A DNA stretch of 18,887 nt from an uncultured beta proteobacterium (GTDB taxonomy: Bacteria; Pseudomonadota; Gammaproteobacteria; Burkholderiales; Burkholderiaceae_C): the NCBI GenBank assembly GCA_903927495.1, contig CAIYNH010000046.1, positions 1-18,887 of the forward strand, given 5' to 3'. Positions within the stretch are counted from its first letter, which is position 1. Each line of letters starts with the position of its first letter. The position numbers were made by a program, and so were the translations under genes. Positions 2,433 to 18,478 of this stretch are shown here, in pieces. The notes beneath the pieces were generated by a model that was not told where the DNA came from, searched no databases, and worked only from the letters and a program-made list of their open reading frames with translations.

Positions 2433-2456
2433 TTAATTTTTCAAGGAGCAAGCCTC

Positions 2457-2714: not shown

Positions 2715-2717
2715 GCC

Positions 2718-3122: not shown

Positions 3123-3151
3123 CATCACTTCAAACATCCGTCGATTCTTGT

Positions 3152-3198: not shown

Positions 3199-3261
3199 TA
3201 TTTTTGAATAGTCATCACGTACTACCGTCATTCTTCCATGGCACGCATGGGTGTCTATCGT

Positions 3262-3295: not shown

Positions 3296-3904
3296 ATGAC
3301 CATTGCAGCAGCACTTTTTACCGACAGCCAATCGCGCCTCTTTGTGTGGCTGTTTGGTCAACCAGACCGCGCCTATCACCTCAACGAGCTACGCCGCCTT
3401 ACCGGCCTGGGCAGTGCCTCGTTGCAGCGAGAGCTCAACCGCTTGGCCACGGCAGGCCTGGTCGATGCGCAAGCGGTCGGCAACCTGCGCCGCTTTCAGG
3501 CCAACCCCCAATCGTCTGTGTATGCTGAACTGGTCGCCCTGACTCGCAAGACGCTGGGCACGGTGCCGGTGCTGCGCGATGCCTTGCAACCCTTGTTGCC
3601 AAATCTGCAATCCGCCTGGGTCTATGGTTCGGTCGCCAAACAAACCGACACCGCCCGCAGCGACATTGACGTGATGCTGGTGGGTAACGATTTGCTGCTC
3701 AGCCAGGTCTTGGCCGCGTTGGAGCCCGCCGAGGCGCAATTGGGCCGAATAATCAACCCAAGCTGCTATTCACCCAAAGAGTTTGAGCGTCGCCGCGCCG
3801 AGCCAGACTCGTTTGTCAACCGGGTGTTGTCGCAGCCCACACTGTCATTGATAGGGGACGCCCATGAGCCTGATGTGAAAACCTTGAGCCAAATAGCCCT
3901 CTAG
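3296..3904 (+). CDS. Winged-helix plus MNT-type nucleotidyltransferase domain protein
   Basis: A 202-residue protein with two domains. Residues ~10-75 form a winged helix-turn-helix ('L-N-E-L-R-R-L-T-G-L-G-S-A-S-L-Q-R-E-L-N-R-L ... G-L-V'). Residues ~105-150 carry a minimal nucleotidyltransferase core with G111-S112, D123 and D125 in 'V-Y-G-S-V-A-K-x7-S-D-I-D-V-M-L-V-G', the canonical G-S ... D-x-D metal-binding pattern. Such fusions may act as regulators or transfer nucleotides to a partner; no HEPN partner is encoded nearby. I place the start at ATG 3296 because the family begins near 'A-A-A-L-F'; a GTG at 3251 would add 15 hydrophobic residues translated across the palindromic region. The last residues and the stop codon (3902-3904) come from repeat copy 3, so the natural C-terminus may have been altered. 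Confidence 0.75.
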   Translation: MTIAAALFTDSQSRLFVWLFGQPDRAYHLNELRRLTGLGSASLQRELNRLATAGLVDAQAVGNLRRFQANPQSSVYAELVALTRKTLGTVPVLRDALQPLLPNLQSAWVYGSVAKQTDTARSDIDVMLVGNDLLLSQVLAALEPAEAQLGRIINPSCYSPKEFERRRAEPDSFVNRVLSQPTLSLIGDAHEPDVKTLSQIAL

Positions 3905-3953: not shown

Positions 3954-6900
3954 ATGTCCCCTGTCACACCCACCCCCAACGCCCCCCTACCCAAACCCCT
4001 GCGCACCCAGCTTGAAAACACCGTCAAGGCTGCACGCGATGTAGCTGAAAAAGCTGGCAAAGCCGCCTTGGCACAACTGGCAGTGGCCGAACCCAAGGTG
4101 CCTGATTATCTGGACGAACCCCAGCGGGTTTTAAGAAGGAAATTGCGCGCTCATGCCCGTTCCATCAGCGCAAGCAGCTCTCAAAACAGTAGTGTCGAGC
4201 TGCAAGCACTGGTGTGGGAGGTAGCCTATGAGCACTGGCACCGCATGTTGTTTGCCCGCTTTCTGGCCGAAAACAACCTTCTGATGTGGGAGCCGGGTGC
4301 TGCCGTGTCGCTGGACGACTGCCGCGACATGGTGGACAACCATCCTGATATGGCGATGGGTGCCAAAAGCCATTGGGAGCTGGCGGGCAAACTGGCCGCG
4401 CGCATGTTGCCGCAAGTTTTCAAACCGCACAGCCCTGTGTTTGAAATCAGCTTTGCACCCGAACACCAGCGCGAGCTGGAGCGGCTGCTCTCGCAATTGC
4501 CGCCCGAGGTCTTTCAGGCCAGCGACAGCCTGGGCTGGGTTTATCAGTTTTGGCAAGCCAAGCGCAAAGACGAAGTCAACGCCTCCGAGGTCAAGATAGG
4601 TGCCGACGAACTGCCCGCCGTCACCCAGCTCTTTACCGAGCCCTATATGGTGGACTTTTTGCTGCACAACTCGCTGGGTGCCTGGTGGCACACCCGCCAC
4701 CCCGGCCTGCCTTGCCCGGTGACCATGCCGTATTTGCGCACGCTGGAGGATGGCAGCCCCGCTGCGGGCAACTTTGAAGGCTGGCCCGACCACCTGACCG
4801 ACTTCAAGTTGCTTGACCCCAGCTGCGGCTCGGGCCACTTTTTGGTGGCGGCCTTTTTGCTGCTGGTGCCGCTGCGTGTGGCCGACGAGGGTTTGAGCGC
4901 TATGGATGCGGTCGATGCCGTGCTGGCGCACAACCTGCACGGGCTGGAGATAGACCCTCGCTGTGTCGAAATCGCGGTGTTCGCGTTGGCCTTGGCCGCC
5001 TGGCGCTACCCCGACGAACACGGCAACTCGCTGGGTGTGCGGCCAGACATGCCCGCGCCACGCATTGCCTGCTGCGGCCTGAAAGTGTCTGCCCGACCGC
5101 AAGACTGGGAAGCACTGGTGCCCGACAGCCAGCCCAACGCTGCATTGCTGCGCCAGGAGCTGCGCCTGCTGCACAGCGTGTTTGCCCAAGCGCCCTTGCT
5201 GGGCAGCTTGCTCAACCCGTCGCTGAGCATCAAAAACGACCTGGCCACATCCAGTTTTGAGACGCTGCAAACGCTGATAGAGCAAGCCCTGAGCAGTGAG
5301 CAACCCGGCACGCTGTGGGGCGGGTCGCAAGATTTGAATGACGATGCCTGGGACTTAGCCATCAGCGCCCGAGGCCTGCTGGAAGCGGCCCGATTGCTGG
5401 ATGCGCGCTATCACTTGGTGATTACCAATGTGCCGTATTTGGCGCGCGGCAAACAGTCCGACGGTTTGAGGTCGTTTTGCGCATCAAACTACAAAGATGC
5501 GAAACATGACCTTGCGACGGTTTTTATTGAACGATGTATAGACCTATGTTTGAGTTCAGGAAGCTTTGGTATCGTTAGCCCGCAAAACTGGTGGTTTTTG
5601 CAAAGCTATACGGACTTTAGAGGCTGGTTGCTGAGCGAAACTACTATCGACCTCGCTGCTTCACTTGGCGAGGAGGCCTGGGAATCGTTCGGAAACCGCG
5701 GTCCGCTTGCAACGCTGTGGCTTGGAACAAGGAAACTGGCGCATCCAACCCAGACTTTTGCTGGTATCAATGCAATCAGTCTTAAAACAATTGACGAGAA
5801 GAAAGAGCACCTCAAGACTGGAGTGGTTCTGAACGTTTCTCAAGCGCAGCAGCGTAGAAATCCAGATTCCAGGATTGTGCTCTCCGAGAGTTCGACCAAT
5901 CTCGCACTACTTGGACAATATGCAACCTCATTCCAGGGAGTTAAGACAGGAGATGATGCAAGTTTCCGAGTCTGCTTCTGGGAGTTGGGCGATAAAACAC
6001 AATCTTGGATTCACTATCAGGGAGCTGTTGACCAGGGGCAACTATTTGGTGGACTTTCCGACTGCCTGCTTTGGAAGAATGGCGGCCAAGAAATTGCCCG
6101 TCGCCAAGGATTAGGCGCTTGGGGAAAAGCTGGTGTGCTCATTTCACAAATGCGTGCCCTGCCTACGAGCATTTATATGGGTGGTGCCTTTGATAGCAAT
6201 GTTTCACCCATCATTCCATTTTCATCTAGCGACCTGTTGGCAATTTGGGCTTTTTGTTCGTCAGGGGCGTATGCCGACTTGGTAAGAGAAATTGACCAAA
6301 GTCTAAAGGTTACGAACTCAACCCTTACAAAAGTCCCCTTCGACCTGGCCCACTGGAGCCAAGTCGCCGCCGAGCGTTACCCCCACGGCCTGCCCAAACC
6401 CTATTCCGACGACCCAACCCAGTGGCTGTTCCACGGCCACCCCGTCCCCGCCACCGACCCGCTGCAAGTGGCAGTCGCCCGTCTGCTGGGCTACCGCTGG
6501 CCCGCAGAGCAGCAAACGGCCGATTCTCAAGAGTTACAAGCCAAATCGGCCTCTAGCCCCCGTCAGATAAGCGCGAGCAGCTACAAACAAGCTAGCAACG
6601 ATGCAGCCGCAGCCGACACCAGCGCACCCGCCATGGAGTTATCCAGCGAAGCCCACGCCTGGATAGCCCGCTGCGAGCCGCTTGCCAAACACACCGACGA
6701 CGACGGCATCGTCTGCCTGCCCGCTGTGCGCGGCGAGCAACCCGCCCACGAGCGTTTGCTGGCCCTGCTGATTGATGCCTGGGAAACGGCAGCCCCCGGC
6801 AGTTGGACCCCCAGCGTGCTCGACAAGCTGCTGGCCCAAGCCGACAACGCGGGCAAGGGGCTGGCAGTGTGGCTGCGCGACAGCTTTTTTGAGCAGCACG

Positions 6901-7430
6901 CCAAGCGCTTTGGCCATCGCCCGTTTATCTGGCACGTCTGGGACGGCCAGAAAGACGGCTTTGCTGCCCTGGTTAACGCGCACTTGCTCGATGCCAAAAA
7001 CCTGGAGCGACTCATCCACACCTACCTGGGCGACTGGATTCGCACCCAAGAGGCCGGCGTGGCCAGCGGCGCTGACGGCGCACCGCTGCGCCTGTCCTCC
7101 GCGCAAAACCTCAAAGTCCGCCTGCAAGCCATTCTGGAAGGCGAAAAGCCCTACGACATCTTTGTGCGCTGGAAGCCGTTGGCCCAGCAGCCCATAGGCT
7201 GGCAGCCCGACCTCAACGATGGCATCCGCATAAACATCCGCCCCTTCATGACCTTGGACGTGCTGCGCCACAACAAAAAGCCCAAGCTCAACATCACCTG
7301 GGACAAAGACCGTGGCAAAGACGTTGAGTCCGCCCCGTGGTTCAAAGTGTTCGGCGGCGAGCGCATCAATGACCATCATTTAACTCTGGCTGAGAAAATG
7401 GCGGCAGTTACTAATCTCAGAAAGGTATAA
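3954..7430 (+). CDS. pglX: BREX adenine-specific DNA methyltransferase PglX
   Basis: A 1,158-residue protein close to the usual ~1,200 of BREX type 1 PglX. An N-terminal helical region precedes an N6-adenine methyltransferase core of the Eco57I type. SAM-binding motif I is D288-P-S-C-G-S-G-H-F296. Catalytic motif IV reads N492-V-P-Y495, where most relatives have N-P-P-Y. The block 'N-W-W-F-L-Q-S-Y' ~30 residues on also fits the family. In BREX this enzyme methylates a non-palindromic site on host DNA and is needed to tell self from phage. The central segment (~5460-6340) is AT-rich and contains the expected target-recognition region. Two stretches derive from a dispersed repeat: residues ~862-877 and, degenerate, ~62-76, both translating to I-S-A-S-S. 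The AIPR gene starts three bases after the stop. Confidence 0.9.
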   Translation: MSPVTPTPNAPLPKPLRTQLENTVKAARDVAEKAGKAALAQLAVAEPKVPDYLDEPQRVLRRKLRAHARSISASSSQNSSVELQALVWEVAYEHWHRMLFARFLAENNLLMWEPGAAVSLDDCRDMVDNHPDMAMGAKSHWELAGKLAARMLPQVFKPHSPVFEISFAPEHQRELERLLSQLPPEVFQASDSLGWVYQFWQAKRKDEVNASEVKIGADELPAVTQLFTEPYMVDFLLHNSLGAWWHTRHPGLPCPVTMPYLRTLEDGSPAAGNFEGWPDHLTDFKLLDPSCGSGHFLVAAFLLLVPLRVADEGLSAMDAVDAVLAHNLHGLEIDPRCVEIAVFALALAAWRYPDEHGNSLGVRPDMPAPRIACCGLKVSARPQDWEALVPDSQPNAALLRQELRLLHSVFAQAPLLGSLLNPSLSIKNDLATSSFETLQTLIEQALSSEQPGTLWGGSQDLNDDAWDLAISARGLLEAARLLDARYHLVITNVPYLARGKQSDGLRSFCASNYKDAKHDLATVFIERCIDLCLSSGSFGIVSPQNWWFLQSYTDFRGWLLSETTIDLAASLGEEAWESFGNRGPLATLWLGTRKLAHPTQTFAGINAISLKTIDEKKEHLKTGVVLNVSQAQQRRNPDSRIVLSESSTNLALLGQYATSFQGVKTGDDASFRVCFWELGDKTQSWIHYQGAVDQGQLFGGLSDCLLWKNGGQEIARRQGLGAWGKAGVLISQMRALPTSIYMGGAFDSNVSPIIPFSSSDLLAIWAFCSSGAYADLVREIDQSLKVTNSTLTKVPFDLAHWSQVAAERYPHGLPKPYSDDPTQWLFHGHPVPATDPLQVAVARLLGYRWPAEQQTADSQELQAKSASSPRQISASSYKQASNDAAAADTSAPAMELSSEAHAWIARCEPLAKHTDDDGIVCLPAVRGEQPAHERLLALLIDAWETAAPGSWTPSVLDKLLAQADNAGKGLAVWLRDSFFEQHAKRFGHRPFIWHVWDGQKDGFAALVNAHLLDAKNLERLIHTYLGDWIRTQEAGVASGADGAPLRLSSAQNLKVRLQAILEGEKPYDIFVRWKPLAQQPIGWQPDLNDGIRINIRPFMTLDVLRHNKKPKLNITWDKDRGKDVESAPWFKVFGGERINDHHLTLAEKMAAVTNLRKV
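4136..4181 (+). repeat. Degenerate copy of the dispersed repeat inside pglX
   Basis: The right part (CAGCGCAAGCAGCT, near 4165-4178) matches the repeat closely and is followed by CTCAAAACA as in copy 3. The left part aligns only loosely and the unit is one base shorter than the 47-bp copies. It encodes I71-S-A-S-S75 in the N-terminal region of PglX. The right half is convincing; the left half is tentative. Confidence 0.5.
6538..6584 (+). repeat. 47-bp dispersed repeat, copy 4, in frame inside pglX
   Basis: Matches copy 1 at 41 of 47 positions by hand count and has the same orientation. It is translated as part of residues 862-877 (Q-A-K-S-A-S-S-P-R-Q-I-S-A-S-S-Y), a low-complexity stretch continuing through 'N-D-A-A-A-A-D-T-S-A-P-A'. 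This looks like a flexible linker between the target-recognition part and the C-terminal domain. The frame used avoids the TAG in the 'CTCTAGC' block. Confidence 0.78.
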
Positions 7431-7433
7431 GGC

Positions 7434-9140
7434 ATGAATATCAACACTTCCATCATTGACCAGCGCATCACGGGTGTCGTAGAAGAAATTCGTGAGTCAG
7501 CGCAATCTGAATTGAACCTGACCGAAGCGACCCGACTCAAGTCGCTGGCCTTTGTCTATCTGTGCGTTAAGACCATGCTCGATCTTGATTCGGAGGCGGC
7601 GTTTGATTGTCTGACCGATGGCGGTGGCGATTTTGGTGTGGATGCCATGCACGTAACCGAAGAGATTGATGGCGAGTTCGTTGTCACTCTGTTTCAGGGG
7701 AAATACAAGGCCAAGCTGGAAGGCAACTCAAATTTTGAGGAAAACGGCGTGCTGGCCTTGATCAATGCCATCCGCCACATTTTTGACCCTGCCGCTGAAT
7801 TAGGCACTATCAATGACCGCCTTAGAGTAAAGGTGGAAGCCGCCCGCTCGTTGATACGTGATGGTTTAATTCCCAGCGTACGCGCTATCGCGTGTAACAA
7901 CGGGCTCAAGTGGAACGTATCAGCCGAACAAGCCATAGAACGGACTGGCTTTGGCGATCAAGTGACATGGGAACATGTCAACCACGATGTGCTGATCGGA
8001 CTTTTGCAGCGCCCCAAGCAAGTTGATGACACCTTGCGTTTCGTCGGCAAAGCCAATGTGGAAGACATGAATTTCAGCCGTGTTTGCGTTGGCCGTATGC
8101 CGGTGGCAGAAGTCGCTGCGCTGATGAGCACGAACGGCGACCGTTTGCTTGAGCGCAATGTTCGGCGCTATCTGGGTTTGCACGGTAACCGAGTTAATGA
8201 GGGTATTGCGGCTACCCTGCGTTCCAACAATCCCGCTAATTTTTATTTCTTCAACAACGGCTTGACGATCATTTGTGATCACTTCAAATACAACGCCTTG
8301 CAAGGAGCCAACTTTCAGGTGCAAGCCGATAACTTGCAAATCGTCAATGGCGCACAGACTTGCATGACGATTGCCAAGACCTTGGCTAGTATGGCGGACC
8401 AGGGTGAAATGATCCCGCTAGATGTCAGTGTTTTGGTGCGTTTGTATGAGTTGCCCAAAGACAATGAAGACCTTGTACTGCAAATTACACACGCGACGAA
8501 CAGTCAAAATCCTGTTGATTTGAAAGATTTGCGCTCTAACGACGAAGTGCAACAGCGGCTCGACAACAGTGTTCAAGCTTTAGGCTACAACTACCGCCGC
8601 AAGCGTACGGATGGGGCGCCCAAACAAGTGGACATCACCTCGGGCGCGGCAGCTGAGGCGATTCTTGCTGTCTGGCGTGCAGCCCCGCACCAGGCCAAGT
8701 TTCTGACTCGGGAGCATTTTGGCAAGTTGTATCGTGAAATATTTCCACCAAACATCAATGGTGCGCAGGCTATCACAGCGGTGCTGTTGTATCGCATTGC
8801 AGAGAATCATCGGCGTCGTCCAGCACCTGCTGACCCATTGTTCGTACGCTACGCCTCATGTTTTATCGCGATGCAAATGGGGCGGCGTTTGCTGAAGATG
8901 CTCCAACTTCCGCTTGAAAGGCTTGACCATACCAATTTCACTACCGCACAAGGTTTGGTTGAAACGCAAGGTGAAAGCTATTTCTTGGCATCAGTAAAAG
9001 ATATTGAGCTGTCACTCAAGGCTTTGTATGGTGAGCAGCCGATCTCCGTACAACAGTTGTCCGCAACGTTCAGACGCGGCGATCTCATCGAGCGACTAAA
9101 GGGACTGGGCATTGAAGATGTCAGGGACGCAACATCATGA
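7434..9140 (+). CDS. AIPR-family protein with PD-(D/E)XK-like N-terminus
   Basis: A 568-residue protein recognised as the AIPR (abortive infection phage resistance) family by F272-F-N-N-G-L-T-I-I280, Q302-I-V-N-G-A-Q-T309 and the block N-S-Q-N-P-V-D-L-K-D-L-R-S-N-D (356-370). The N-terminal ~100 residues show a nuclease-like pattern, 'D-G-G-G-D66-F-G-V-D70 ... L-F-Q88-G-K90-Y-K', matching the D ... Q/E-x-K layout of PD-(D/E)XK enzymes. AIPR proteins occur beside methyltransferases and in defence islands; their biochemical action is not settled. A good ribosome binding site AAAGG (7421-7425) overlaps the end of pglX, and the start lies three bases beyond the pglX stop, so the two are tightly co-expressed. 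A nuclease restrained by, or guided by, PglX modification is an attractive inference but is not shown here. Confidence 0.85.
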   Translation: MNINTSIIDQRITGVVEEIRESAQSELNLTEATRLKSLAFVYLCVKTMLDLDSEAAFDCLTDGGGDFGVDAMHVTEEIDGEFVVTLFQGKYKAKLEGNSNFEENGVLALINAIRHIFDPAAELGTINDRLRVKVEAARSLIRDGLIPSVRAIACNNGLKWNVSAEQAIERTGFGDQVTWEHVNHDVLIGLLQRPKQVDDTLRFVGKANVEDMNFSRVCVGRMPVAEVAALMSTNGDRLLERNVRRYLGLHGNRVNEGIAATLRSNNPANFYFFNNGLTIICDHFKYNALQGANFQVQADNLQIVNGAQTCMTIAKTLASMADQGEMIPLDVSVLVRLYELPKDNEDLVLQITHATNSQNPVDLKDLRSNDEVQQRLDNSVQALGYNYRRKRTDGAPKQVDITSGAAAEAILAVWRAAPHQAKFLTREHFGKLYREIFPPNINGAQAITAVLLYRIAENHRRRPAPADPLFVRYASCFIAMQMGRRLLKMLQLPLERLDHTNFTTAQGLVETQGESYFLASVKDIELSLKALYGEQPISVQQLSATFRRGDLIERLKGLGIEDVRDATS

Positions 9141-9226: not shown

Positions 9227-10519
9227 ATGTTAAAAACCTTAAAACTCAGTGGCGTGGGGCCATCCCCCTCCATGGATCTCAATTTTGGTGACCGGCTCAA
9301 CCTCATCACCGGCGACAACGGACTAGGTAAAAGCTTTTTACTTGATATTGCTTTTTGGGCCATGACGCGGCGCTGGCCCGGCGAGGTCAATAAGCGCCTG
9401 ACGACGGGCCGCCTTGCCTTGCCGCGTCCGCAAGAGCAGGGCGACATTACGTTTTCTTTCACTGGCAAGACGGCCACTGAGCAATACACCAGCCACTTTG
9501 ACAGGCAAACCCAGTCCTGGACCGGGCGCGCGGGGCGGCCAGCCAACCCGGGCCTGGTGTTGTATGCCATGGCAGACGGTGGTTTTGCACTGTGGGACCC
9601 GGCCAGAAATTACTGGCGCACTCAAGCTGGGGTGGATGTGCAAGAGCGTCGCCCAGCTTATGTGTTTAGCCCACAAGATGTTTGGGATGGTCTGGAAGAT
9701 GAGACCGGCATTTATTGCAATGGCTTGATACGCGATGTGGCCAATTGGCAGCGCGAACAAGGCGATGCCTGGACTCATTTTGTGTGGGTGTTGATGACGC
9801 TATCTGCCAACGAAGACGAGACTTTGTTCATGGGCAAGTTGACGCGCATCAGCTTGGATGATGCCAGGGACATGCCGACCTTGACCATGCCCTATGGACT
9901 GGATGTGCCTGTGGTACATGCCTCATCAGGTATGCGCCGTATTTTGGCGCTGGCCTATCTACTGGTTTGGGCCTGGGAAGAGCATTTGAAGGCCAGTCAA
10001 TTGCTGGCAGAGACCAGTAGTAATCAAGTCGTTTTTTTGATTGACGAAATAGAGTCGCACCTGCACCCCAAATGGCAGTTCAGTGTGATTGGTTCGCTGG
10101 TGAGTGTGATGAAAAACATGGCCCCTACCGCGCAAGTGCAGTTGATTACAGCCACGCATTCGCCGCAGGTGTTGGCTTCGCTGGAGCCCTTTTTTGATGC
10201 GACCCAAGATGCCTGGTTTGACCTGGATTACATCCACGGTGAAGAGGGTGCTGACGTGGCTTTGACGCAGCGGGTTTTTGAGAAACACGGCACGGTGTCG
10301 AACTGGCTCACCAGTGAGGCTTTTGATTTGACCAGTGACCGGGCACCAGAGATTGCCAAACTTTTGGACGAAGCTTCCAAACTCGTCAACCAGGCCAACT
10401 CGAACGACTTGCCCGCGTTGCAGGCGATGAATCAACAGTTGCTGCTGGCGCTTAACCCCAAAGACGCGTTCTTGTTCCGTTGGCGGGCCTTGGCTGAGCA
10501 TAAAGGCTGGCAGCCATGA
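9227..10519 (+). CDS. RecF/SMC-like AAA ATPase 1 (PtuA-like)
   Basis: A 430-residue ATPase. Walker A is G29-D-N-G-L-G-K35-S36. Walker B is V268-V-F-L-I-D-E-I-E-S-H-L-H-P281, a form typical of OLD/PtuA/RecF-type ATPases, followed by T-A-T-H311-S-P-Q. A signature-like 'S-S-G-M-R-R-I-L-A-L-A' precedes Walker B (~233-243). No separate nuclease domain is seen, so activity probably depends on a partner. I choose ATG 9227 because the family begins directly at the first strand (MLKTLKL) and GGAA lies eight bases before it; ATG 9182 would add 15 unrelated residues. The stop overlaps the start of an HNH-like gene by ATGA, giving an ATPase-nuclease pair with the layout of Septu. It differs clearly from ATPase 2, so it is not a recent duplicate. 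Confidence 0.8.
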   Translation: MLKTLKLSGVGPSPSMDLNFGDRLNLITGDNGLGKSFLLDIAFWAMTRRWPGEVNKRLTTGRLALPRPQEQGDITFSFTGKTATEQYTSHFDRQTQSWTGRAGRPANPGLVLYAMADGGFALWDPARNYWRTQAGVDVQERRPAYVFSPQDVWDGLEDETGIYCNGLIRDVANWQREQGDAWTHFVWVLMTLSANEDETLFMGKLTRISLDDARDMPTLTMPYGLDVPVVHASSGMRRILALAYLLVWAWEEHLKASQLLAETSSNQVVFLIDEIESHLHPKWQFSVIGSLVSVMKNMAPTAQVQLITATHSPQVLASLEPFFDATQDAWFDLDYIHGEEGADVALTQRVFEKHGTVSNWLTSEAFDLTSDRAPEIAKLLDEASKLVNQANSNDLPALQAMNQQLLLALNPKDAFLFRWRALAEHKGWQP

Positions 10520-11130
10520 TGCCGGTGTGTTTGCAGCCCGAGCCTGCCAACTTTGACGAGCGTGTTCGCCAGCGCGGGCATCAATGGCTGGTTGACAAAG
10601 GCTGGTCAATGGATGCACCCGCGCCGGATGCGAGTGCCTTGCCAACTTATTGGCGCGAGTCGCAAAAAGAGCTCTGGAGTGCTTATGGGGGAATCTGTGC
10701 GTACTTGTGTATTTTCTTTGAGTGGGCAAGTGGGGCATCTTCCACAGACCATTTTGTCGCCAAGTCAGTCAACGCTGGGCAGGCCTATGAGTGGGCCAAC
10801 TTCCGTTTGAGTTGCTTGGGCGCAAACCGCAACAAAGGCCGCTTTGATGATGTGTTGGACCCGTTTGAGATGTCGGAATTTACTTTTGAACTCAATCTGG
10901 CTAATGGCGAGATTGCCCCTGGGGGGCATTTACAGGCTGACGCGGCGTTGCTTAACATGGCATTGACCACCATTCAGCGGCTTCATCTTAATGACGTTGA
11001 AACGGCTGGTATGCGAGCCCAACATGTGAATGATTATTTCAATCATGATGTCAGCGCAGACTATTTGCGCAGGCGCTCGCCCTTTGTGTGGGCGGAGATG
11101 GTTCGGCAAGGGGTTATTTGCACACCATGA
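10516..11130 (+). CDS. HNH-like nuclease 1 (divergent PtuB/TIGR02646-like)
   Basis: A 204-residue protein with a degenerate HNH core. C61-A-Y-L-C65 stands where relatives have C-x-x-C; 'T-D78-H79-F-V-A-K-S' matches the '(D/E)-H-F-R-P-K' motif; and 'Y-E-W-A-N95-F-R-L-S-C100-x-x-x-N104-R-N-K-G' matches the 'Y-x-W-x-N-L-x-x-S-C-x-x-C-N-x-x-K' block. The DH pair and the Asn are kept, but zinc-binding cysteines are partly lost, so activity or metal binding may differ. The start ATG overlaps the ATPase 1 stop (ATGA), with AAAGG at 10502-10506 as ribosome binding site; a second ATG three bases on is equally possible. Co-translation and the ATPase-HNH order support a Septu-like pair. Assignment is by motif spacing only. 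Confidence 0.65.
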   Translation: MMPVCLQPEPANFDERVRQRGHQWLVDKGWSMDAPAPDASALPTYWRESQKELWSAYGGICAYLCIFFEWASGASSTDHFVAKSVNAGQAYEWANFRLSCLGANRNKGRFDDVLDPFEMSEFTFELNLANGEIAPGGHLQADAALLNMALTTIQRLHLNDVETAGMRAQHVNDYFNHDVSADYLRRRSPFVWAEMVRQGVICTP

Positions 11131-11177
11131 AGCTGACCGAAGAAATGGCGGCACGCCGCGAAAAAGGAGATTTGTGA
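11127..11177 (+). other. 16-codon coupled mini-ORF between the two modules
   Basis: The ATG overlaps the HNH 1 stop (ATGA) and the ORF reads MKLTEEMAARREKGDL before a TGA that overlaps the ATPase 2 start (TGATG). The AAAGGAG ribosome binding site of ATPase 2 (about 11163-11169) lies within it. This double overlap would let ribosomes pass without a break from HNH 1 to ATPase 2. It may be only a coupling leader; no peptide function is claimed. Confidence 0.4.
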
Positions 11178-12493
11178 TGAAACTAGACTCAATCCATCTA
11201 AAAAACTACCGTTGTCATGCAGGTCTGTCAGTGATCTTTAGGCCTGGTTTTAACGTGGTGGTAGGCATCAACGGCAGTGGAAAAACTTCGCTGCTCAAAG
11301 GCATTTGCGAGTCGTTTTATGGCCTGATAGCCGCACTGGATGTGCCACACAATCCCCCGCTGACTGAGGCCGGGCATGTGCGCCTGCTTGCCGTCAACAC
11401 CGGCGGCTTGTACCGGTTTGAACCGCAATATCCAGTCAAGGTGGAAGCTGGCGGTGAAGCGTTTGACGCAGGTTGCGTCTGGACCCTGACCCGAACCAGC
11501 CAGGTGGGCAGTGCCACACTGTCCGGCCAATTTCCGGGCCAGATATGGCGCACCCTTCAGCAGGTTGGTAACCCGAGACCCGAAGGTCCGCTAGATTTTC
11601 CTAGCCTTCCACTGGTAGCCTTTTACCGCGCCAATCGGCATTGGAGCGACCCTCAGCCCCACGAGTTGCAAGCCGCCACACAACGCAATTCACGTATCGA
11701 CGGTTACGCGAGCTGGTGGAATGCCTCGCTGGACTCGGTTGCTTTTCAAAGCTGGGCTATTGCCAAATGCTTGGAGCGCTTTCAGACCTCATCCGAGACG
11801 GGTGTCGCGTTTGATGCTATAAAAAATGATGAACTGGCATTGGCCAATGTGGCATTGGCAAAGGCCGTGGAAGGAGTCAAGGGCCTGCGCTACGACTTGA
11901 AGCAAAAGAGTTTGTTGGTGGACTGGCTGCCAGATGTTTCAGGCACGCGCGACCCCACGGCGTTTGAGAACCTCAGCGACGGGCAGCGTGCCGTCATCGG
12001 TCTGGTGGGCGACATTGCGCGGCGCATGTGTCTGCTTAACCCGCAACTTGGGGTTGAGGTCACCACCAAGACAGCCGGGGTGGTGTTGATTGATGAGTTG
12101 GATATGCACTTGCATCCCCGCTGGCAACGCATCATCACCCAAGGCTTGCAGGCGGCGTTTCCGGCGCTGCAATTCATAGTGGCGAGCCATTCGCCGCAGG
12201 TGCTGGGCGAACTGCGGCCAGAGCAAATCATTCTGCTGCGCCCGGAGGGCACATCGCACCCCCAGGTGAGCTATGGCCTGGACTCCAGCCAGGTGCTGGA
12301 AGAAATCATGGATGCCACCGCCCGCACACCTGGCGTTGAAGACGCGCTGGCCAAGCTGTTTGCGACGCTGGAGCGCAATGAGCTTGACTCGGCGCGTGAG
12401 CAACTGAACGCCTTGTCGGAACTGGCCCCAGGCATCGCCGAGCTGGGTGGAGCCGCAGCGCTGCTCAAGCGCAAAGAGGTGTTGGGCCGATGA
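11177..12493 (+). CDS. RecF/SMC-like AAA ATPase 2 (PtuA-like)
   Basis: A 438-residue ATPase starting MKLDSIHLKNYRCHAGLSVI, the typical 'L-x-N-Y-R' opening of RecF/PtuA-like proteins. Walker A is G30-I-N-G-S-G-K36-T37, the ABC-type signature is L266-S-D-G-Q270, Walker B is V302-V-L-I-D-E-L-D-M-H-L-H-P314, and A-S-H338-S-P-Q follows. The layout matches Septu PtuA, including the effector ATPases found with some retrons. The start at 11177 is set by the strong AAAGGAG seven bases upstream; the longer frame from 11030 runs back into HNH 1 and is rejected. It overlaps the following HNH gene by ATGA. All motifs are intact, so it should be an active ATPase. Confidence 0.85.
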   Translation: MKLDSIHLKNYRCHAGLSVIFRPGFNVVVGINGSGKTSLLKGICESFYGLIAALDVPHNPPLTEAGHVRLLAVNTGGLYRFEPQYPVKVEAGGEAFDAGCVWTLTRTSQVGSATLSGQFPGQIWRTLQQVGNPRPEGPLDFPSLPLVAFYRANRHWSDPQPHELQAATQRNSRIDGYASWWNASLDSVAFQSWAIAKCLERFQTSSETGVAFDAIKNDELALANVALAKAVEGVKGLRYDLKQKSLLVDWLPDVSGTRDPTAFENLSDGQRAVIGLVGDIARRMCLLNPQLGVEVTTKTAGVVLIDELDMHLHPRWQRIITQGLQAAFPALQFIVASHSPQVLGELRPEQIILLRPEGTSHPQVSYGLDSSQVLEEIMDATARTPGVEDALAKLFATLERNELDSAREQLNALSELAPGIAELGGAAALLKRKEVLGR

Positions 12494-13146
12494 AGCATGT
12501 CACCAAGGGCAGCCCTGCGCCGGAATTTGAAGCCTGGAAAGTCAGCGATGATGCCAATTGGGCACCCGGTTATGGTGATTTGCAAAACCCGCAAAAACGC
12601 AAGTTGCATGAGTCATTGCTGAGTGAGCAGGGTTGGATTTGTTGTTACTGCGGTCGCCAGATTGACTTGAGTGACAGCCACATTGAGCACTTTCGGCCGC
12701 AAGAGCGTTATGCCGATTTGGCGTTGAACTACGAGAATTTGCACGCATCTTGCATCCGCGAGACTCAACCGGGTATGCCGCTGCATTGTGGTCATGCCAA
12801 GGGTGCTGATTTTGATGAAGCCTTGCAGATTTCCCCGCTCGATGCGCACTGCGAGTCGCGTTTTGCCTACACCTTGGATGGGCACATCATCCCCAGTGAC
12901 ACAAACGACACCCAAGCGGCGTACATGGTCAATCTGCTCAAGCTTGACATTGCCTTTTTGCGTGACCGACGACTCGAAGTGGTAAGTCGCGTTTTTGATG
13001 ACAAATTTCTGGCAACTGCCACGTTGCAGGAGCTTGAGACCTTGCGCGACTTTTTCCGTGCCCGAGGTGCTCAAGACAAGGCACAGTCGTTTGGCCATGT
13101 ACTGGCCCGCTTTGCGGAACAACGACTTTTGGATGCATCGCCATGA
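12490..13146 (+). CDS. HNH endonuclease 2, PtuB/TIGR02646 family
   Basis: A 218-residue protein with a well-kept HNH core: W49-I-C51-C-Y-C54 (zinc CxxC), I65-E-H67-F-R-P70 (catalytic His region), Y81-E-N83-L-H-A-S-C88, then C100-G-H-A-K-G. This is the pattern of the TIGR02646 family, which includes the nuclease PtuB of Septu and the HNH effector of some retron systems. It overlaps ATPase 2 by ATGA at its start and pglZ by ATGA at its end, so it is embedded in the BREX transcript. In Septu the ATPase and HNH protein form a complex that cuts nucleic acid on phage infection; the same role is inferred here. No reverse transcriptase or retron RNA is seen in the window. Confidence 0.85.
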   Translation: MKHVTKGSPAPEFEAWKVSDDANWAPGYGDLQNPQKRKLHESLLSEQGWICCYCGRQIDLSDSHIEHFRPQERYADLALNYENLHASCIRETQPGMPLHCGHAKGADFDEALQISPLDAHCESRFAYTLDGHIIPSDTNDTQAAYMVNLLKLDIAFLRDRRLEVVSRVFDDKFLATATLQELETLRDFFRARGAQDKAQSFGHVLARFAEQRLLDASP

Positions 13147-15524
13147 CGCTGGCCGACAAACTGATTGAAAGCGTGCAAGCGGCTGCCAAGGTGAACCGCT
13201 CGCTGATGGTCGCACCCGCCGCCATCCTATGGACAGACGCAGACCGCCATTGGGAATCCGCCATTGCGCAATTGACCAAGCAGTTGCCAGAGCTGTTTGT
13301 GCTGGGTACCTATGCCCCAGACAAGCGCCAAGGCCCCAGCATTTGGCTGAAATGCGCTGTTGCTGGCAAGGTGGGTGCCCCATTGCCGGACGGTGTCGTA
13401 CCCATTCTGTACTTGCCCGGTATCAGCCGCGCCGACCTGCGCGCCATTGAAACTTGCCCGCGCGAGCTGCAGCCGCTGGCCGAGTTGCAATACCGGGGCG
13501 TGTTCTGGAGCCAAGTCAACGGTAAAGACTGGACCGTGAACGCGTTCCTGTCAGCAAAAAAAGGCGGCCTGGGGCTGGATGTAACGCAGGTCAAAACCAC
13601 GCAAGAGGCGCTCAAACGTGTGCTGGAAGCGCATCTGTTGCTTGACCGCAATGTGGCCGAATTGCAGGGGCATCAAATCAATGCAGCCTGGTTGGAGGCC
13701 TTGCTGATGCCGAACCCTACGCGTGATGTGCTGGTTTGGCTGAACAACCCTGCTTCGGCGCAGGCGCAATGGGTGGGTGGGCATTGGTCAGTGTTTGTGG
13801 GCCATTGTCAGCAGAATTTGGGGTTCGACCCGCAATCAGATGGCACAGTGAGCGCCGCTGAAAAACTGGCCGAGCATCAAGGCCCATGGGCCAATGTGTG
13901 GGAGCTTTATTGCGAGTCCTTCACCAGCTTCAATTCAATTGCCCCCTTACTCGGTCAATTGTCGCCACCACCACCCAAAGATTTCTTTGATGCACCAGAC
14001 CAGTTGGCAGGCTACCCTCGCGCCAGCGAAAGTGCCGAGTCTGCCCTGCGCTATGCCTTGAGTGCGTGCGCGTCGATGTCGGCTGAACTGGCGCGGGCAA
14101 AAGTGCTGGATTTGGATAAAGAACATGGCAGCCGCCGCGATTGGCTTTGGTCCAAGATGGGCAGTGCGCCGCTGGTGCAGGGTTTGCAACATCTGGCTGA
14201 GCTTGCCACGCTATCCAAGCAAACGCCAGCCGGTGCCACCTTGGCGCAACTGGCAATCAGCTACCAAGAGTCGGGTTGGCGGGTGGACCAAGCTGCCATG
14301 CAGGCACTGGCTGCCGTCAGTAGCAAGGCGGACACCGATGCCGTTGGCGGGGCGTTGCGTGCGCTGTATGTACCGTGGCTGGAGGATTCGGCGCATCGTT
14401 TTCAGGAGCTGGTGAAGGCAGAAGGCGGTTTGAATGTGGAAGCGACTGTAGAAGCGCCATCTTGGCGCTTGATGAATTCAAAGCGGCTGGAAGCCGCTTC
14501 CACAGATGGCGCTTCTACAGACGGGGTCTGCACGGTGTTCGTCGATGGCCTGCGCTATGACGTGGCTATGCAATTGAAAGCTCAGTTAGCGAGTTTGGGC
14601 AAGGTTACTTCCAGCGCCATGTGGACCAGCATGCCGTCAGTCACAGCGTCCGGCAAAGCGTGGGCTTCGCCGGTGGCGCAGTGGGTATCGGGCAAAAAGA
14701 CGGACGAAAACTTTGAGCCCAGTGTGGCGTTTGACTGCAAACCGCTGTCCACCCACAATTTCCGCAAGCTGCTGGCCGACCATGGCTTTCAGGTGCTTGA
14801 CAAACAAGAATGCGGCGACCCCAGTGGCAAGGCTTGGGTGGAGTGTGGCGACCTCGACCATTTTGGGCATGAGCACGGGCTGCGATTGGCGCGTGATATG
14901 GACAACCAATTGCTACAAATTGTGGAGCGCGTGACGGAGCTGCAGCTTGCAGGTTGGGCACATTTCCGTATCGTCACCGACCATGGCTGGTTGCTGGTGC
15001 CCGGAGGGCTGCCTAAGTCTGATCTCTCAAAGTTTGAAGCAGAAACCCGCTGGGGCCGCTGTGCGGTGCTGAAGGATTCGTCCCACGGCACCCCGCTGAC
15101 CTTTGGTTGGGATTGGTGCAAGGACGTGCAGATTGCCTTCGCCCCTGGCATTTCCAACTTCCATGCAGGTGCGGTTTACACCCATGGCGGTCTGACCCTG
15201 CAGGAATGTCTGGTGCCAGTTTTGGAGCTGGTTGCTGCGGGCGCTACCGTCAGCACGCTGAAGGTGGACATCACCAAGGTCACTTGGACGGGGTTGCGGT
15301 GCAAAGTCGAGGTGACACCACCGGTTGCCGGGCTCAGCGTCGATATCCGCACCAAAGCGGCATTGGCCGATTCGACGCTGGTTGCAAACGTCAGGGCTCT
15401 GGAAAATGGAAAGGCATCGTTGGCGGTGGAAGACGATGCGAACGAAGGCACCGCTGCGTTCGTGGTGGTGCTAGATGCCGGTGGTAACTTGGTGCAAAAG
15501 AAGCCGACCACGATCGGGGAATAA
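13143..15524 (+). CDS. pglZ: BREX alkaline-phosphatase-fold protein PglZ (type A)
   Basis: A 793-residue protein with an N-terminal helical region and a PglZ domain of the alkaline phosphatase superfamily. Putative metal-binding residues are D468 in 'V-F-V-D-G-L-R471-Y-D473', D613-H614 in 'I-V-T-D-H-G-W', and H681 in 'Y-T-H-G-G-L-T-L-Q-E688'. PglZ is a core BREX component required for defence and, in many systems, for methylation; its enzymatic target is not firmly established. Residues ~432-460, just before the first catalytic strand, are encoded by a cluster of palindromic repeats and include A-S-T-D-G twice in tandem. The start overlaps the HNH 2 stop (ATGA), so pglZ is translationally coupled to the Septu-like module. 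The length is slightly below that of typical members. Confidence 0.9.
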   Translation: MTLADKLIESVQAAAKVNRSLMVAPAAILWTDADRHWESAIAQLTKQLPELFVLGTYAPDKRQGPSIWLKCAVAGKVGAPLPDGVVPILYLPGISRADLRAIETCPRELQPLAELQYRGVFWSQVNGKDWTVNAFLSAKKGGLGLDVTQVKTTQEALKRVLEAHLLLDRNVAELQGHQINAAWLEALLMPNPTRDVLVWLNNPASAQAQWVGGHWSVFVGHCQQNLGFDPQSDGTVSAAEKLAEHQGPWANVWELYCESFTSFNSIAPLLGQLSPPPPKDFFDAPDQLAGYPRASESAESALRYALSACASMSAELARAKVLDLDKEHGSRRDWLWSKMGSAPLVQGLQHLAELATLSKQTPAGATLAQLAISYQESGWRVDQAAMQALAAVSSKADTDAVGGALRALYVPWLEDSAHRFQELVKAEGGLNVEATVEAPSWRLMNSKRLEAASTDGASTDGVCTVFVDGLRYDVAMQLKAQLASLGKVTSSAMWTSMPSVTASGKAWASPVAQWVSGKKTDENFEPSVAFDCKPLSTHNFRKLLADHGFQVLDKQECGDPSGKAWVECGDLDHFGHEHGLRLARDMDNQLLQIVERVTELQLAGWAHFRIVTDHGWLLVPGGLPKSDLSKFEAETRWGRCAVLKDSSHGTPLTFGWDWCKDVQIAFAPGISNFHAGAVYTHGGLTLQECLVPVLELVAAGATVSTLKVDITKVTWTGLRCKVEVTPPVAGLSVDIRTKAALADSTLVANVRALENGKASLAVEDDANEGTAAFVVVLDAGGNLVQKKPTTIGE
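14436..14520 (+). repeat. REP-like palindrome cluster in frame within pglZ
   Basis: Two hairpins lie side by side: AAGCGCCA-TCT-TGGCGCTT (14452-14470) and AAGCGGC-TGGAA-GCCGCTT (14481-14499). In addition CTGTAGAAGCGCCATCT (14446-14462) recurs exactly inverted at 14504-14520, and GTGGAAGCG (14436-14444) recurs inverted at 14495-14503. The right side also forms a 15-bp imperfect tandem repeat (14496-14525), giving A-S-T-D-G twice in the protein. All matches were checked base by base. Confidence 0.8.
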
Positions 15525-15546: not shown

Positions 15547-17592
15547 ATGGAATTAGATGAACTGGACCGCAAGGCCACTGCTGCGTTTGAAGGCTATGTG
15601 GTGCGTAAGGACCTGGTTCGGACTTTTAGCCGCCAGTTTCCGGTGCCAACCTACGTTGTGGAATTTTTGCTGGGCCGTTACTGTGCCACCACCGATGAGA
15701 CTGAAATCCAGGAAGGTCTGGAAATCGTGCAGAAGCAATTGAGCTCGCGCACGGTCAAGGCTGGGGAAGAAAACCTGTTCATTTCCCGCGCCCGTGAGCA
15801 AGGCTCCGTCAAAATCATCGACAACATCACGGCCCGCTTGGATGCCAAAAGCGACTCGTATGTGGCTTCGCTGCCCAGCCTGCGCCTGAATGACGTGCGC
15901 ATCACACCGGAAATGGTCAAAGAGCACGAGCGCATGCTGACCGGCGGCTTTTATGCCGAAGTCACCCTGGGCTACGACGCGTCCATTGCCCAAGAAAAGG
16001 GTGGACGACCATTCGGCGTTGATGCCCTGCGTGCCATTCAGCTCTCGAAACGCGAAGTGCTCACCGCTCTGGCTAAGGGGCGTGCCAGCTTCAACACCTC
16101 TGAGTGGCGTGATGTGCTGCTGCGCAGTGTCGGCTTTGAGCCAGCGGACCTGAATGACCGCGCCAAAGATGCGCTGCTCCTGCGCATGGTGCCGTTCGTG
16201 GAGCGCAATTACAACCTGGTGGAGCTCGGCCCGCGAGGCACCGGTAAGTCGCACCTGTTTCAACAAATCTCGCCCTATGCCCACCTGATTTCTGGCGGCA
16301 AGGCCAGCGTGGCGCGCATGTTTGTGAATAACGCCAGTGGCCAGCGCGGCCTGGTGTGCCAGTACGACGTGGTCTGTTTTGACGAGGTGTCCGGCGTGTC
16401 CTTTGACCAGAAGGACGGCGTGAACATCATGAAGGGCTACATGGAGAGCGGGGAGTTCTCCCGTGGCAAAGAGAGCATTCGCGCCGATGGCTCCATCGTG
16501 CTGGTGGGCAATTTTGAGGTGGATGTGGAGCATCAGCAGCGCGTGGGCCACCTGTTTGGCCCCTTGCCGCCAGAGATGCGCAACGACACGGCCTTCATGG
16601 ACCGCATCCACTGCTTTTTGCCGGGGTGGGACGTGCCCAAGCTCAACCCGACCATGTTCACCAACCACTTTGGCCTGGTCAGCGACTTCTTGTCGGAGTG
16701 TTTCACCCAGCTACGCGGCCAGAGTCGGGTTGCGACCTTGCAAGGGCGCGTGTTCTGGGGCGGAGCCCTGTCAGGGCGTGACCTGAACGGTGTCAACAAG
16801 ACGGTCAGTGGCCTGCTCAAGCTGATTTACCCGGATGAGAGTGCCCAGGTCAGCGATGAAGACCTCGAATGGGCGGTACGCTTGGCCTTGGAAGTGCGCC
16901 GCCGCGTGAAAGAGCAGCAAAAACGCATTGGCGCGGCAGAGTTCCGCAACACCCACTTCAGCTACACGATTGGCACTGAGGGCGTTGAGAAGTTTGTTTC
17001 CACCCCGGAGTTGCAAAGCCAGAGCGGCATTGGTGACGAGCCATTGGAGTGTGGTCAGATTTGGACACTGAGCCCCGGTGGCCAGGAAGAACACCCAGGC
17101 TTGTTCCGGCTGGAAGTCACTGAAGGCCCGGGCAGCGGTGTGCGGGTGTTGAACAACCCCGTGCCGGCACCATTCAGGGAGTCGATTCGCTGCGCTGAAC
17201 AGAACCTTTACGCGCGTGCCACACAGCTTGTTGGCGACCGTGACCCTCGCGAGCATGAGTTCTCCGTTCAGATTCGGGGCTTTGACGCTGCCAAGTCCGG
17301 TGCCAAGACAGGAGTGGCATCGCTGATTGCACTGTCCAGCGCTCTCTTGCGCAAGTCAGTCAGGGGAGGTTTGGTTGTGGTCGGTGAGGTGACCTTGGGC
17401 GGCACCATCGAGCCCGTATTCAACGCCGTGACGCTGGCCGAATTGGCGATTGAAAAAGGCGCCAAGTCATTGCTTCTGCCCGTAGCGTGCCGCAAGCAGT
17501 TGTTTGACCTGTCTGATGACATGGCGACCAAGCTGGATGTCGAGTTCTACCAGGATGCGCGGGATGCGTTGCTGAAGGCGTTGGTGGATTGA
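15547..17592 (+). CDS. brxL: BREX Lon-like AAA+ protein BrxL
   Basis: A 681-residue protein matching BREX type 1 BrxL throughout. Residues ~1-150 form the N-terminal DNA-binding region ('V-R-K-D-L-V-R-T-F-S-R-Q-F-P-V-P'). The AAA+ domain has Walker A G228-P-R-G-T-G-K234-S235 and Walker B V-V-C-F-D279-E280. Residues ~570-681 form a Lon-like domain. Where Lon has its catalytic serine (G-P-S-A-G) this protein has G585-A-K-T-G589, and the partner lysine region reads P-V-F-N-A-V-T-L, so no Ser-Lys protease dyad is apparent; this is probably usual for BrxL. BrxL is needed for phage restriction but generally not for methylation. It starts 22 bases after pglZ with its own AAAAGTGAG (15533-15541), the last gene of the BREX operon. 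Confidence 0.93.
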   Translation: MELDELDRKATAAFEGYVVRKDLVRTFSRQFPVPTYVVEFLLGRYCATTDETEIQEGLEIVQKQLSSRTVKAGEENLFISRAREQGSVKIIDNITARLDAKSDSYVASLPSLRLNDVRITPEMVKEHERMLTGGFYAEVTLGYDASIAQEKGGRPFGVDALRAIQLSKREVLTALAKGRASFNTSEWRDVLLRSVGFEPADLNDRAKDALLLRMVPFVERNYNLVELGPRGTGKSHLFQQISPYAHLISGGKASVARMFVNNASGQRGLVCQYDVVCFDEVSGVSFDQKDGVNIMKGYMESGEFSRGKESIRADGSIVLVGNFEVDVEHQQRVGHLFGPLPPEMRNDTAFMDRIHCFLPGWDVPKLNPTMFTNHFGLVSDFLSECFTQLRGQSRVATLQGRVFWGGALSGRDLNGVNKTVSGLLKLIYPDESAQVSDEDLEWAVRLALEVRRRVKEQQKRIGAAEFRNTHFSYTIGTEGVEKFVSTPELQSQSGIGDEPLECGQIWTLSPGGQEEHPGLFRLEVTEGPGSGVRVLNNPVPAPFRESIRCAEQNLYARATQLVGDRDPREHEFSVQIRGFDAAKSGAKTGVASLIALSSALLRKSVRGGLVVVGEVTLGGTIEPVFNAVTLAELAIEKGAKSLLLPVACRKQLFDLSDDMATKLDVEFYQDARDALLKALVD

Positions 17593-17619
17593 TTCTTATA
17601 ACTAAGCACTGGCTATTGA

Positions 17620-17787
17620 ATGAATGAGACACGTCTTGGTTTTTTGAACGAACCAACGACTTTGAATTGGTCCTATGGCAAGGTTGTGCCACTAGATGAA
17701 TATAACCAGCTTGTTACATCCATGAATGCTAGTCAAGGCGTCTATGGCGGGTGGTGCTACCCGCAATCACCACCGATGCAGACGTGA
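17620..17787 (+). CDS. Small hypothetical ORF, possibly a truncated gene
   Basis: A 55-residue ORF starting MNETRLGFLNEPTTLNWSYG and ending G-G-W-C-Y-P-Q-S-P-P-M-Q-T. Its balanced amino-acid composition, with ordered-looking 'Y-G-K-V-V-P-L-D-E-Y-N-Q-L-V' helix/strand stretches, suggests real coding or the N-terminal remnant of a longer gene. I recognise no family. No strong ribosome binding site is visible (AAGCACTGG lies somewhat upstream). It starts 27 bases after brxL and is the only candidate gene between the BREX operon and mraZ. Confidence 0.35.
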   Translation: MNETRLGFLNEPTTLNWSYGKVVPLDEYNQLVTSMNASQGVYGGWCYPQSPPMQT

Positions 17788-18040
17788 TTACTTGATCAGT
17801 TTTTCTCCTCAAGCATCACATTCAAAACGCACGCTAAGTGCTTAATTTAGAACGATTTTTATCTGACATTTGGATTCAAAATCGCGTCTAAGTCATTGAT
17901 TTCATTGTAAAAATTTGTTGCAGCATGGTTTCCGGAATGGTCTTTTGCTGATACAGTGCAAAAAAGTGCAATTTTGTGGTGAATTGTGCTTTTTGTCTTA
18001 CTATTGTTGAGTTCCCCCAAAAAACCAAAGGTCTGTCATC
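17788..18040 (+). promoter_or_regulatory. AT-rich control region upstream of mraZ
   Basis: About 250 bases without a credible gene, distinctly more AT-rich than the surroundings. The segment beginning ATTCAAAACGC (17820) is loosely repeated as ATTCAAAATCGC (17874), each followed by a CTAAGT block. The right part holds the GTG-box array and a possible TACTAT -10 box (17999-18004). This is where the promoter of the dcw cluster should lie. Confidence 0.5.
17955..17989 (+). promoter_or_regulatory. MraZ operator: four GTG boxes at exact 10-bp spacing
   Basis: GTG occurs at 17956, 17966, 17976 and 17986, each preceded by A or T, in AGTGCAAAAAAGTGCA followed by TTTTGTGGTGAATTGTGC. Direct GTG-containing repeats at about one helical turn upstream of mraZ are the known binding pattern for MraZ, which represses its own operon in E. 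coli and binds similar repeats in mycoplasmas. Position (55 bases before the start) and spacing support autoregulation. Confidence 0.7.
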
Positions 18041-18469
18041 GTGTTTCAAGGCGCTTCCTCATTGAGTCTGGATGGAAAGGGTAGGCTATCAGTGCCAACC
18101 CGGCATCGAGATGTCTTGAGCGCCTCGGCGGCGGGTCAACTGACCATCACCAAACACCCGCACGGCTGTTTGATGCTGTTCCCGCGCCCGGAATGGGAGA
18201 AATTTCGTGAACGCATCGCTGCCTTGCCGATGTCGGCGCAGTGGTGGAAACGGATTTTTCTGGGTAACGCGATGGATGCCGAAATTGATGGCACGGGTCG
18301 GGTCTTGATTTCTCCCGAATTACGCGAGGCCGCCGGTATCTCCAAAGAAGCGGTCTTGTTGGGCATGGGCAATTTTTTTGAGCTATGGGACAAAACCACC
18401 TACGACGCTCAGGAAGCCCAGGCGATGCAGGGTGTCATGCCCGATGTGCTCAAGGACTTTTCTTTTTAA
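18041..18469 (+). CDS. mraZ: Transcriptional regulator MraZ
   Basis: A 142-residue protein with the two tandem SpoVT-AbrB half-domains of MraZ, each with the D-x-x-G-R motif: D11-G-K-G-R15 and D83-G-T-G-R87. It begins with GTG ([20 protein letters not shown]), preceded by AAAGG at 18027-18031. Length and first residues match the family. MraZ forms a ring-shaped oligomer that binds upstream repeats and tunes expression of the division and cell-wall cluster. It is followed after nine bases by rsmH, the standard order of the dcw cluster. The gene looks intact and typical, so the defence island ends before it without damaging the operon. Confidence 0.97.
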
Positions 18470-18478
18470 AGGCTGACG

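Follow-up and report, generated by a model that had tools for sequence, protein, structure and literature searches.

Gene content of the locus

The window analysed here, i.e. the whole stretch of 18,887 nucleotides, is one entire contig (CAIYNH010000046.1, C46) of an uncultured beta proteobacterium whose genome is fragmented and 75.6% complete. It carries a type-1 BREX (bacteriophage exclusion) operon in which an AIPR gene and two pairs of ATPase and HNH-nuclease genes, related to the Septu system (PtuA/PtuB), lie between pglX and pglZ. The left part reads brxC (3' half), ParE-type and PIN-type toxin-antitoxin pairs, a nucleotidyltransferase-like gene and pglX, and the right part continues with AIPR, ATPase1, HNH1, an open reading frame (ORF) of 16 codons, ATPase2, HNH2, pglZ, brxL, mraZ and rsmH (Table 1). 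As in type-1 BREX, pglX, pglZ, brxC (partial, at the contig end) and brxL are found in one operon. PglZ is of type B (NF033450, 854.9 bits; cut-off 400), BrxL scores 634.7 bits with TIGR02653 (cut-off 628.25), and the BrxC piece, half a protein, reaches 334.3 bits against a cut-off of 400.

An initial annotation of this DNA, made from the letters alone, had described two tandem ATPase-HNH couples, ATPase gene first, with an ATGA overlap in each and another between the second HNH gene and pglZ. These overlaps were indeed found, at 10516-10519, 12490-12493 and 13143-13146. The translation chain that it proposed holds within the pairs and into pglZ, but HNH1 and ATPase2 do not overlap each other and are joined through the 16-codon ORF (the linker), which shares ATGA with HNH1 and TGATG with ATPase2. 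No promoter or terminator signal emerged inside the operon between 7000 and 18100, where 3 promoter-like and 12 terminator-like sites were counted and shuffles gave 4.7 and 13.7.

Table 1. Genes of the BREX operon and of the modules between pglX and pglZ
Feature	Position	Strand	Evidence
brxC, 3' half (gene cut by the contig start)	2..1693	+	BrxC PDLC02489, 5.8e-198 (PADLOC), profile 584-1145
pglX, left border of the cargo slot, C-terminus ..LTLAEKMAAVTNLRKV	3954..7430	+	
Module 1: AIPR gene	7434..9140	+	PF10592 1.1e-49; AbiU 4e-45
Module 2: ATPase1, divergent PtuA-type ATPase	9227..10519	+	Walker A GDNGLGKS 29-36, Walker B FLIDE 270-274; second in-frame start possible at 9182
Module 2: HNH1, divergent PtuB-type HNH nuclease	10516..11130	+	H79, N95, N104
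16-codon ORF MKLTEEMAARREKGDL, interpreted as a scar: remnant of an old pglX 3' end (AARREKGDL), possibly joined to the region of a pglZ start codon	11127..11177	+	
Module 3: ATPase2, PtuA	11177..12493	+	Walker A GINGSGKT 30-37, Walker B VLIDE 303-307
Module 3: HNH2, PtuB	12490..13146	+	H67, N83; TIGR02646 above cut-off
pglZ type B, overlapping HNH2 by ATGA; right border of the cargo slot	13143..15524	+	
brxL	15547..17592	+	

Identity of the two ATPase/HNH pairs

All four proteins match PtuA or PtuB models of PADLOC, in line with the Septu-like nature first suggested for them; the best E-values are 1.7e-164 for ATPase1, 1.8e-63 for HNH1, 1.3e-157 for ATPase2 (PDLC00277) and 4.6e-80 for HNH2 (PDLC00346). 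Pair 2 consists of adjacent genes for a PtuA ATPase and a PtuB HNH protein, ATPase first, and HNH2 passes the cut-off of TIGR02646 (124.1 bits). The same profile check failed for HNH1 (27.8 bits, cut-off 52.15), and pair 1 is therefore named Septu-type, a divergent branch, and not a member of TIGR02646. ATPase1 is a PtuA-type ABC ATPase, and HNH1 is of the PtuB type by its PADLOC model and its fold: the predicted structures of both proteins match solved PtuA and PtuB, with the PtuAB proteins of retron-Eco7/Ec78 as best structural neighbours. Since PADLOC holds two PtuB/PtuA models specific to pair 1, its genes had already been catalogued. The two pairs are divergent, as had been noted: the best local match between the ATPases is 41% over 59 amino acids, that between the HNH proteins 27% over 55.

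The catalytic His and Asn are kept in both HNH proteins, at a spacing of 16 that matches Septu EcB88. A dead nuclease could be ruled out for HNH1, in which H79, N95 and N104 are invariant (100% of 87 sequences); HNH1 lacks the CxxC zinc pairs found in other PtuB proteins. An association with a retron was likewise ruled out: no reverse transcriptase was found among the 16 main ORFs scanned and no msr-msd RNA matched Rfam at gathering thresholds, as a type I-A retron would require, and all four pair proteins missed the equivalog cut-offs of NF041760/NF041761. The nearest named relative of ATPase1 among the matches listed is that of a Rhodoferax sp. (L054, 96% identity), which makes a Rhodoferax-like host probable. 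Relatives in L049, L050, L051 and L052 have open frames of 624-636 amino acids, hence an N-terminal extension of about 200, and are preceded by a common gene of 308-329 amino acids; they form a distinct sub-branch.

The linker between the two pairs

The linker, MKLTEEMAARREKGDL, is read here as the old 3' end of a pglX gene. A 15-column profile was built from 34 PglX C-termini (window excluded) and run against 113,225 stop-anchored 16-mers; the linker ranked ninth, behind six pglX ends, one pglX-end stub (L067) and one unrelated 16-mer (L087). Among the 120 PglX compared (one being the window's own), P0136 ends in LTLAEKIAARREKGDLS, with nine consecutive residues identical to the linker, and similar C-termini occur in four more (P0162, P0137, P0148 and P0195). 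None of 2000 linker shuffles reached the score of the match to the PglX end. An ATPase2-type pair lies directly behind pglX in L182 and L185, and for three of the five PglX the longest contig has the same size as that of an ATPase2 relative (P0136/P0248, 5699; P0137/P0253, 14229; P0195/P0257, 12692). If the linker is an old pglX end, ATPase2-HNH2 once stood directly behind pglX, and AIPR and ATPase1-HNH1 came in between later; we infer this order of arrival from the sequence.

At its start (ATGAAGCTGACCGA) the linker is similar to the beginning of pglZ behind HNH1 in L054 (ATGACGCTGACCGA). It would then combine a pglZ start with a pglX end, as expected if an HNH1-pglZ border had been joined to a pglX-ATPase2 border. 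The pglZ-start half, taken as a peptide, was not significant (134 of 2000 shuffles).

pglX and pglZ fragments at module edges in other loci

A profile of PglX ends (147 sequences, window excluded) was run over 75,669 six-frame fragments. It recovered 35 full pglX ends and nine further matches of at least 16 bits in eight loci, the next best match scoring 11.5 bits. All nine stubs lie on the strand of the modules. They were found between modules (L066, and L067 with two matches), before ATPase1 (L082, L057, L059 and L104), before AIPR (L108) and, in L091, 3.3 kb upstream of ATPase1, where a second pglX fragment lies nearby. No intact pglX or pglZ is present on the stretch examined in L057, L059, L104 and L091. 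The linker before ATPase1 in L054, MTLVDKIAARNLAGERVC, is similar to that of the window; against PglX ends its score was reached by 5 of 2000 shuffles (whole linker) and 11 of 2000 (second half), and against pglZ starts by 12 of 2000 (first half).

A positional probe for pglZ starts, using 14 of the 35 pglZ starts, was applied to 68 non-BREX HNH1 ends; three exceeded the 99% level of the null (2.8 bits), one of them weakly (L044, 6.5 bits). After the HNH1 stop, a pglZ start in frame with its ATG is found in L059 (17.4 bits) and L088 (32.1 bits). L057 and L108 have further pglZ-start pieces downstream of HNH1, scoring 33.7 and 91.7 bits. In L072 a pglZ start without ATG scores 10.3 bits, within the scan noise (up to 12.6), and is recognised by its position. 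Both stub ends, pglX and pglZ, are kept in L057, L059 and L108; on the WOR-3 contig of L059 (1325-5429) a pglX end, ATPase1, HNH1, a pglZ start and AIPR follow each other, i.e. the partners seen in the window without an intact pglX or pglZ. Besides the window, 11 loci contain stubs (the above without L044), and seven of these (L057, L059, L072, L088, L091, L104 and L108) have no intact pglX and pglZ on the stretch examined; six are among the 73 rows labelled non-BREX in the ATPase1 tree described below. Such loci may be decayed former BREX loci or cassettes transferred with their ends, two origins that the stubs do not tell apart. No PglX-end match of at least 16 bits was found in 14 non-BREX loci of the ATPase2 type (L183, L184 and L186-L197).

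Two further candidates were rejected. A built-in microhomology between pglX end and pglZ start in every slot reached the 95% level of the null in four of 36 rows (1.8 expected) and the 99% level in one, with L054 as the best. The stub at the end of AIPR (MTLRELQLHQ), considered as a pglZ remnant, was matched in score by 613 of 2000 shuffles.

The interval between pglX and pglZ in other loci

Profiles made from the window proteins and their relatives were used to annotate 131 records, window included. There are 42 rows with pglZ, including the duplicates L043/L181 and L096 (one contig), L112/L198 and L117/L200; L201 has a pglZ but was dropped by an overlap rule. Since the loci were gathered mostly with ATPase1 as query, the counts below are counts among the matches listed, from which no frequencies can be derived. 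The slot is empty in L149, L151 and L152. Its sole cargo is AIPR in L148, ATPase1-HNH1 in L056, L112 and L144, and a pair of the ATPase2 type in L182 and L185. The modules are thus separable. Loads are often mixed, with relatives of GmrSD, Schlafen-AlbA, AAA/SMC, DUF932, TIR and Hsp70 (one representative per cluster scanned).

ATPase1-HNH1 lies between pglX and pglZ in at least 20 loci, each counted once and L108, with only fragments of both genes, excluded. Among the matches listed, HNH1 immediately precedes pglZ in 18 of the 20, the exceptions being the window and L117. Three of the 20, namely the window, L054 and L060, have a second PtuAB pair in the same slot. The latter two carry their pairs in the opposite order to the window, and their second ATPase matches PDLC00271 instead of PDLC00277; the HNH partner in L054 is an ORF of 138 amino acids that matches only the N-terminal part of PtuB. 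AIPR is also found near ATPase1-HNH1 in L117, L108 and L059.

In a search with a PglZ profile, independent of ATPase1, 9 of 369 and 6 of 398 genomes were positive, own genome included. It yielded 14 places outside the window, 13 of which were examined; a Septu-type pair lies in the slot in two of the 13 (L198 and L200), and the contigs of L153 and L157 stop short of pglX. Within the own family, and again with the own genome included, ATPase1 was found in 14 of 399 genomes (E <= 1e-40) and ATPase2 in 16 of 398 (E <= 1e-60).

Among 38 rows that could be tested, with the duplicates L043/L181, L112/L198 and L117/L200 among them, 21 show pglZ overlapping the preceding gene by exactly ATGA, and this gene can be HNH1, HNH2, AIPR, a GmrSD-like gene or pglX itself. 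The junction belongs to the slot and not to Septu; it supports co-expression and does not indicate any special tie between Septu and BREX.

The slot of L181 (8541-20000) contains genes for an OLD-TOPRIM protein and a UvrD helicase, which we take to be Gabija-like, together with an ATPase2-HNH2-type pair and a GmrSD relative; some 6 kb past brxL on the same contig, ATPase1-HNH1 is encoded on the opposite strand. In L054 (6787-9197) and L145 (18013-20303) pglZ is split over two frames, by decay or by a sequencing error.

Distribution of pair 1

In a tree of 94 ATPase1 proteins the 21 BREX-labelled rows require 14 label changes, 12 of them forced by well-supported branches, whereas shuffled labels required 19.4 on average and in none of 500 shuffles as few as 14. 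Pair 1 has therefore entered or departed from BREX repeatedly, and its BREX members are somewhat clustered. The count is rough, since the rows labelled 'other' include short contigs and former BREX cargo. Outside BREX pair 1 is mostly a two-gene unit, with clusters of four, three and two neighbour genes as its only recurrent neighbours.

How the modules may have come together

We consider it probable that a type-1 BREX slot was filled stepwise with three separable defence modules (AIPR, ATPase1-HNH1 and ATPase2-HNH2) that act as parallel backups. ATPase2-HNH2 would initially have stood right behind pglX, and AIPR-ATPase1-HNH1 would have entered later via recombination at the pglX end, leaving the old end as a scar. 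PtuA forms an oligomer that controls PtuB, which fits the titles of the solved entries; each of the two PtuA-like ATPases may form an ATP-dependent oligomer restraining its own HNH protein, and the latter would be freed during infection to cut tRNA or DNA. The modules would share transcription and translation, and would serve as parallel backups once a phage evades or blocks BREX, rather than as one four-part machine. By analogy, we infer each pair to be a co-translated backup effector nuclease. More tentatively, the pglX-pglZ interval in general may be an exchange platform: recombination at its two edges, the pglX 3' end and the pglZ 5' end, would let modules enter, stack and leave, and the gene pieces kept as end tags would date the stacking (in the window ATPase2-HNH2, then AIPR-ATPase1-HNH1) and point to cargo that once belonged to BREX and is found by itself in other genomes today.

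Alternatively, both pairs could be complete Septu systems with their own phage triggers, lodged in a tolerant and well expressed slot with no functional tie to BREX. The two-gene unit outside BREX and the 14 label changes are in line with this, as are published neighbours of BREX: BrxU in an E. fergusonii island acts independently of BREX (PMC12707154), and PARIS inside a Salmonella BREX was inactive under the conditions tested (PMC11341690). We nevertheless hold this rather unlikely, as the BREX label is more clustered than chance and the overlapping junctions with pglZ have been kept, which suggests some benefit of joint expression. The composite defence system of the initial annotation is possible as such, but the separate occurrence of each module argues for a stacking of independent modules; nothing was found that points to the proposed control by modification state. 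In its strict form, with two ATPases and two HNH proteins in mixed complexes with BREX parts, licensed by the modification state of the DNA, it would agree with the co-translated chain and with the second PtuAB pair in three of 20 slots, but appears very improbable: every module is found alone in the slot or outside BREX, the two pairs have little sequence in common, and in L054 and L060 they stand in reversed order with another PtuA model.

The stepwise filling depends on how the linker is read. It could be a chance ORF or a small coupling peptide and no pglX remnant, which would make the order of acquisition unreadable: it has only 16 codons, overlaps codons of both neighbours as a coupler would, its likeness to pglX was spotted after looking, and the unrelated 16-mer of L087 scores slightly higher in the profile scan. 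The nine residues in a row shared with P0136, the similar ends of four more PglX, the rank among 113,225 16-mers and the clear pglX-end stubs at module edges of other loci make this highly doubtful. Several findings nevertheless weigh against the stepwise filling by backup modules that we prefer. For a pglX end of the AARREKGDL type directly before ATPase2 the evidence from contig sizes is indirect: there are four coincidences, compared with 0.32 on average over 400 shifted lists, one of which also reached four. Taken alone, the DNA repeat shared by the pglX end of the window (7386-7406) and the linker (11133-11153) was not significant, 45 of 2953 random segments being as good. HNH1 misses the TIGR02646 cut-off, and pair 1 is only distantly related to the Septu systems cited. 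Finally, the full three-module order (pglX-AIPR-ATPase-HNH-ATPase-HNH-pglZ) was found in no other locus among the matches listed. A one-off insertion had been named beforehand as what would refute the composite arrangement; it does not apply to the modules, since pair 1, pairs of the second type and AIPR all recur in the slot of other genomes.

Relation to known systems

With stand-alone Septu the window shares the ATPase gene followed by the HNH gene, the PADLOC models, the folds of ATPase1 and HNH1 and the H/N spacing; it differs in having two divergent tandem pairs inside BREX, the first of them under the TIGR02646 cut-off. In Septu EcB88 both the ATPase and the HNH motifs are required (PMC13096335), and for the Septu of E. 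coli ATCC 25922 an action on nicked DNA has been reported (PMC11555353). The effectors of type I-A retrons (retron-Eco7/Ec78 PtuAB) are structurally nearest to the models of ATPase1 and HNH1, but the window has neither their reverse transcriptase (16 main ORFs) nor an Rfam match, and misses NF041760/NF041761; the retron-Eco7 PtuAB depletes tRNA-Tyr and arrests growth (PMC11555353).

The initial annotation held that Septu normally stands alone or with a retron, which overlooks published OLD-ABC/HNH dyads in BREX loci, proposed as a backup effector (PMC12839542). The setting is thus less exceptional than it had seemed. Those dyads, like the pairs of the window, lie among core BREX genes; according to the accessible text of that article, the window differs by two dyads in one slot, the AIPR gene and the pglX/pglZ border stubs. 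The slot is also known: in about 9,000 genomes pglX lies near pglZ, in about 7,000 of these with genes in between, BrxU and PARIS being among the commonest known systems, and about 5,000 of the 7,000 intervals contain no known system (PMC11341690). BrxU and PARIS resemble the window cargo as other defence genes between pglX and pglZ of type-1 BREX (PMC11341690); they belong to other protein families, and GmrSD-like genes occur in the slot beside pair 1. The backup model has a parallel in PrrC of the EcoPrrI locus, a nuclease embedded in a modification-based restriction system and triggered by inhibition of that system (PMC12707154); the genes are different and the likeness is one of analogy only.

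Both the slot and the dyads were thus known already. In the accessible open-licence PMC literature, with supplements and most subscription journals not covered, no report was found of two Septu pairs (with or without AIPR) in one BREX slot, or of pglX/pglZ stubs at module borders; these, and the linker as a putative old pglX 3' end, look new. Growth of defence islands has mostly been inferred from co-occurrence. If the exchange described above holds, pglX and pglZ leftovers at module borders would be a readable record of the order of entry and of cargo that left BREX; these leftovers would make the exchange route testable by recombination assays and could help to bring order into the numerous genes of the pglX-pglZ interval that have no classification yet.

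Neighbouring genes

The gap between brxC and pglX (1714-3904) contains a ParE-type toxin-antitoxin pair, a MazE-like/PIN pair (VapBC-type) and a winged helix-turn-helix nucleotidyltransferase-like gene, and is perhaps a second cargo slot of the same BREX operon. Directly downstream of the end of the operon (17592-18886), mraZ and rsmH mark the start of a cell-division gene cluster, and the border between the BREX operon and mraZ is a possible insertion site.

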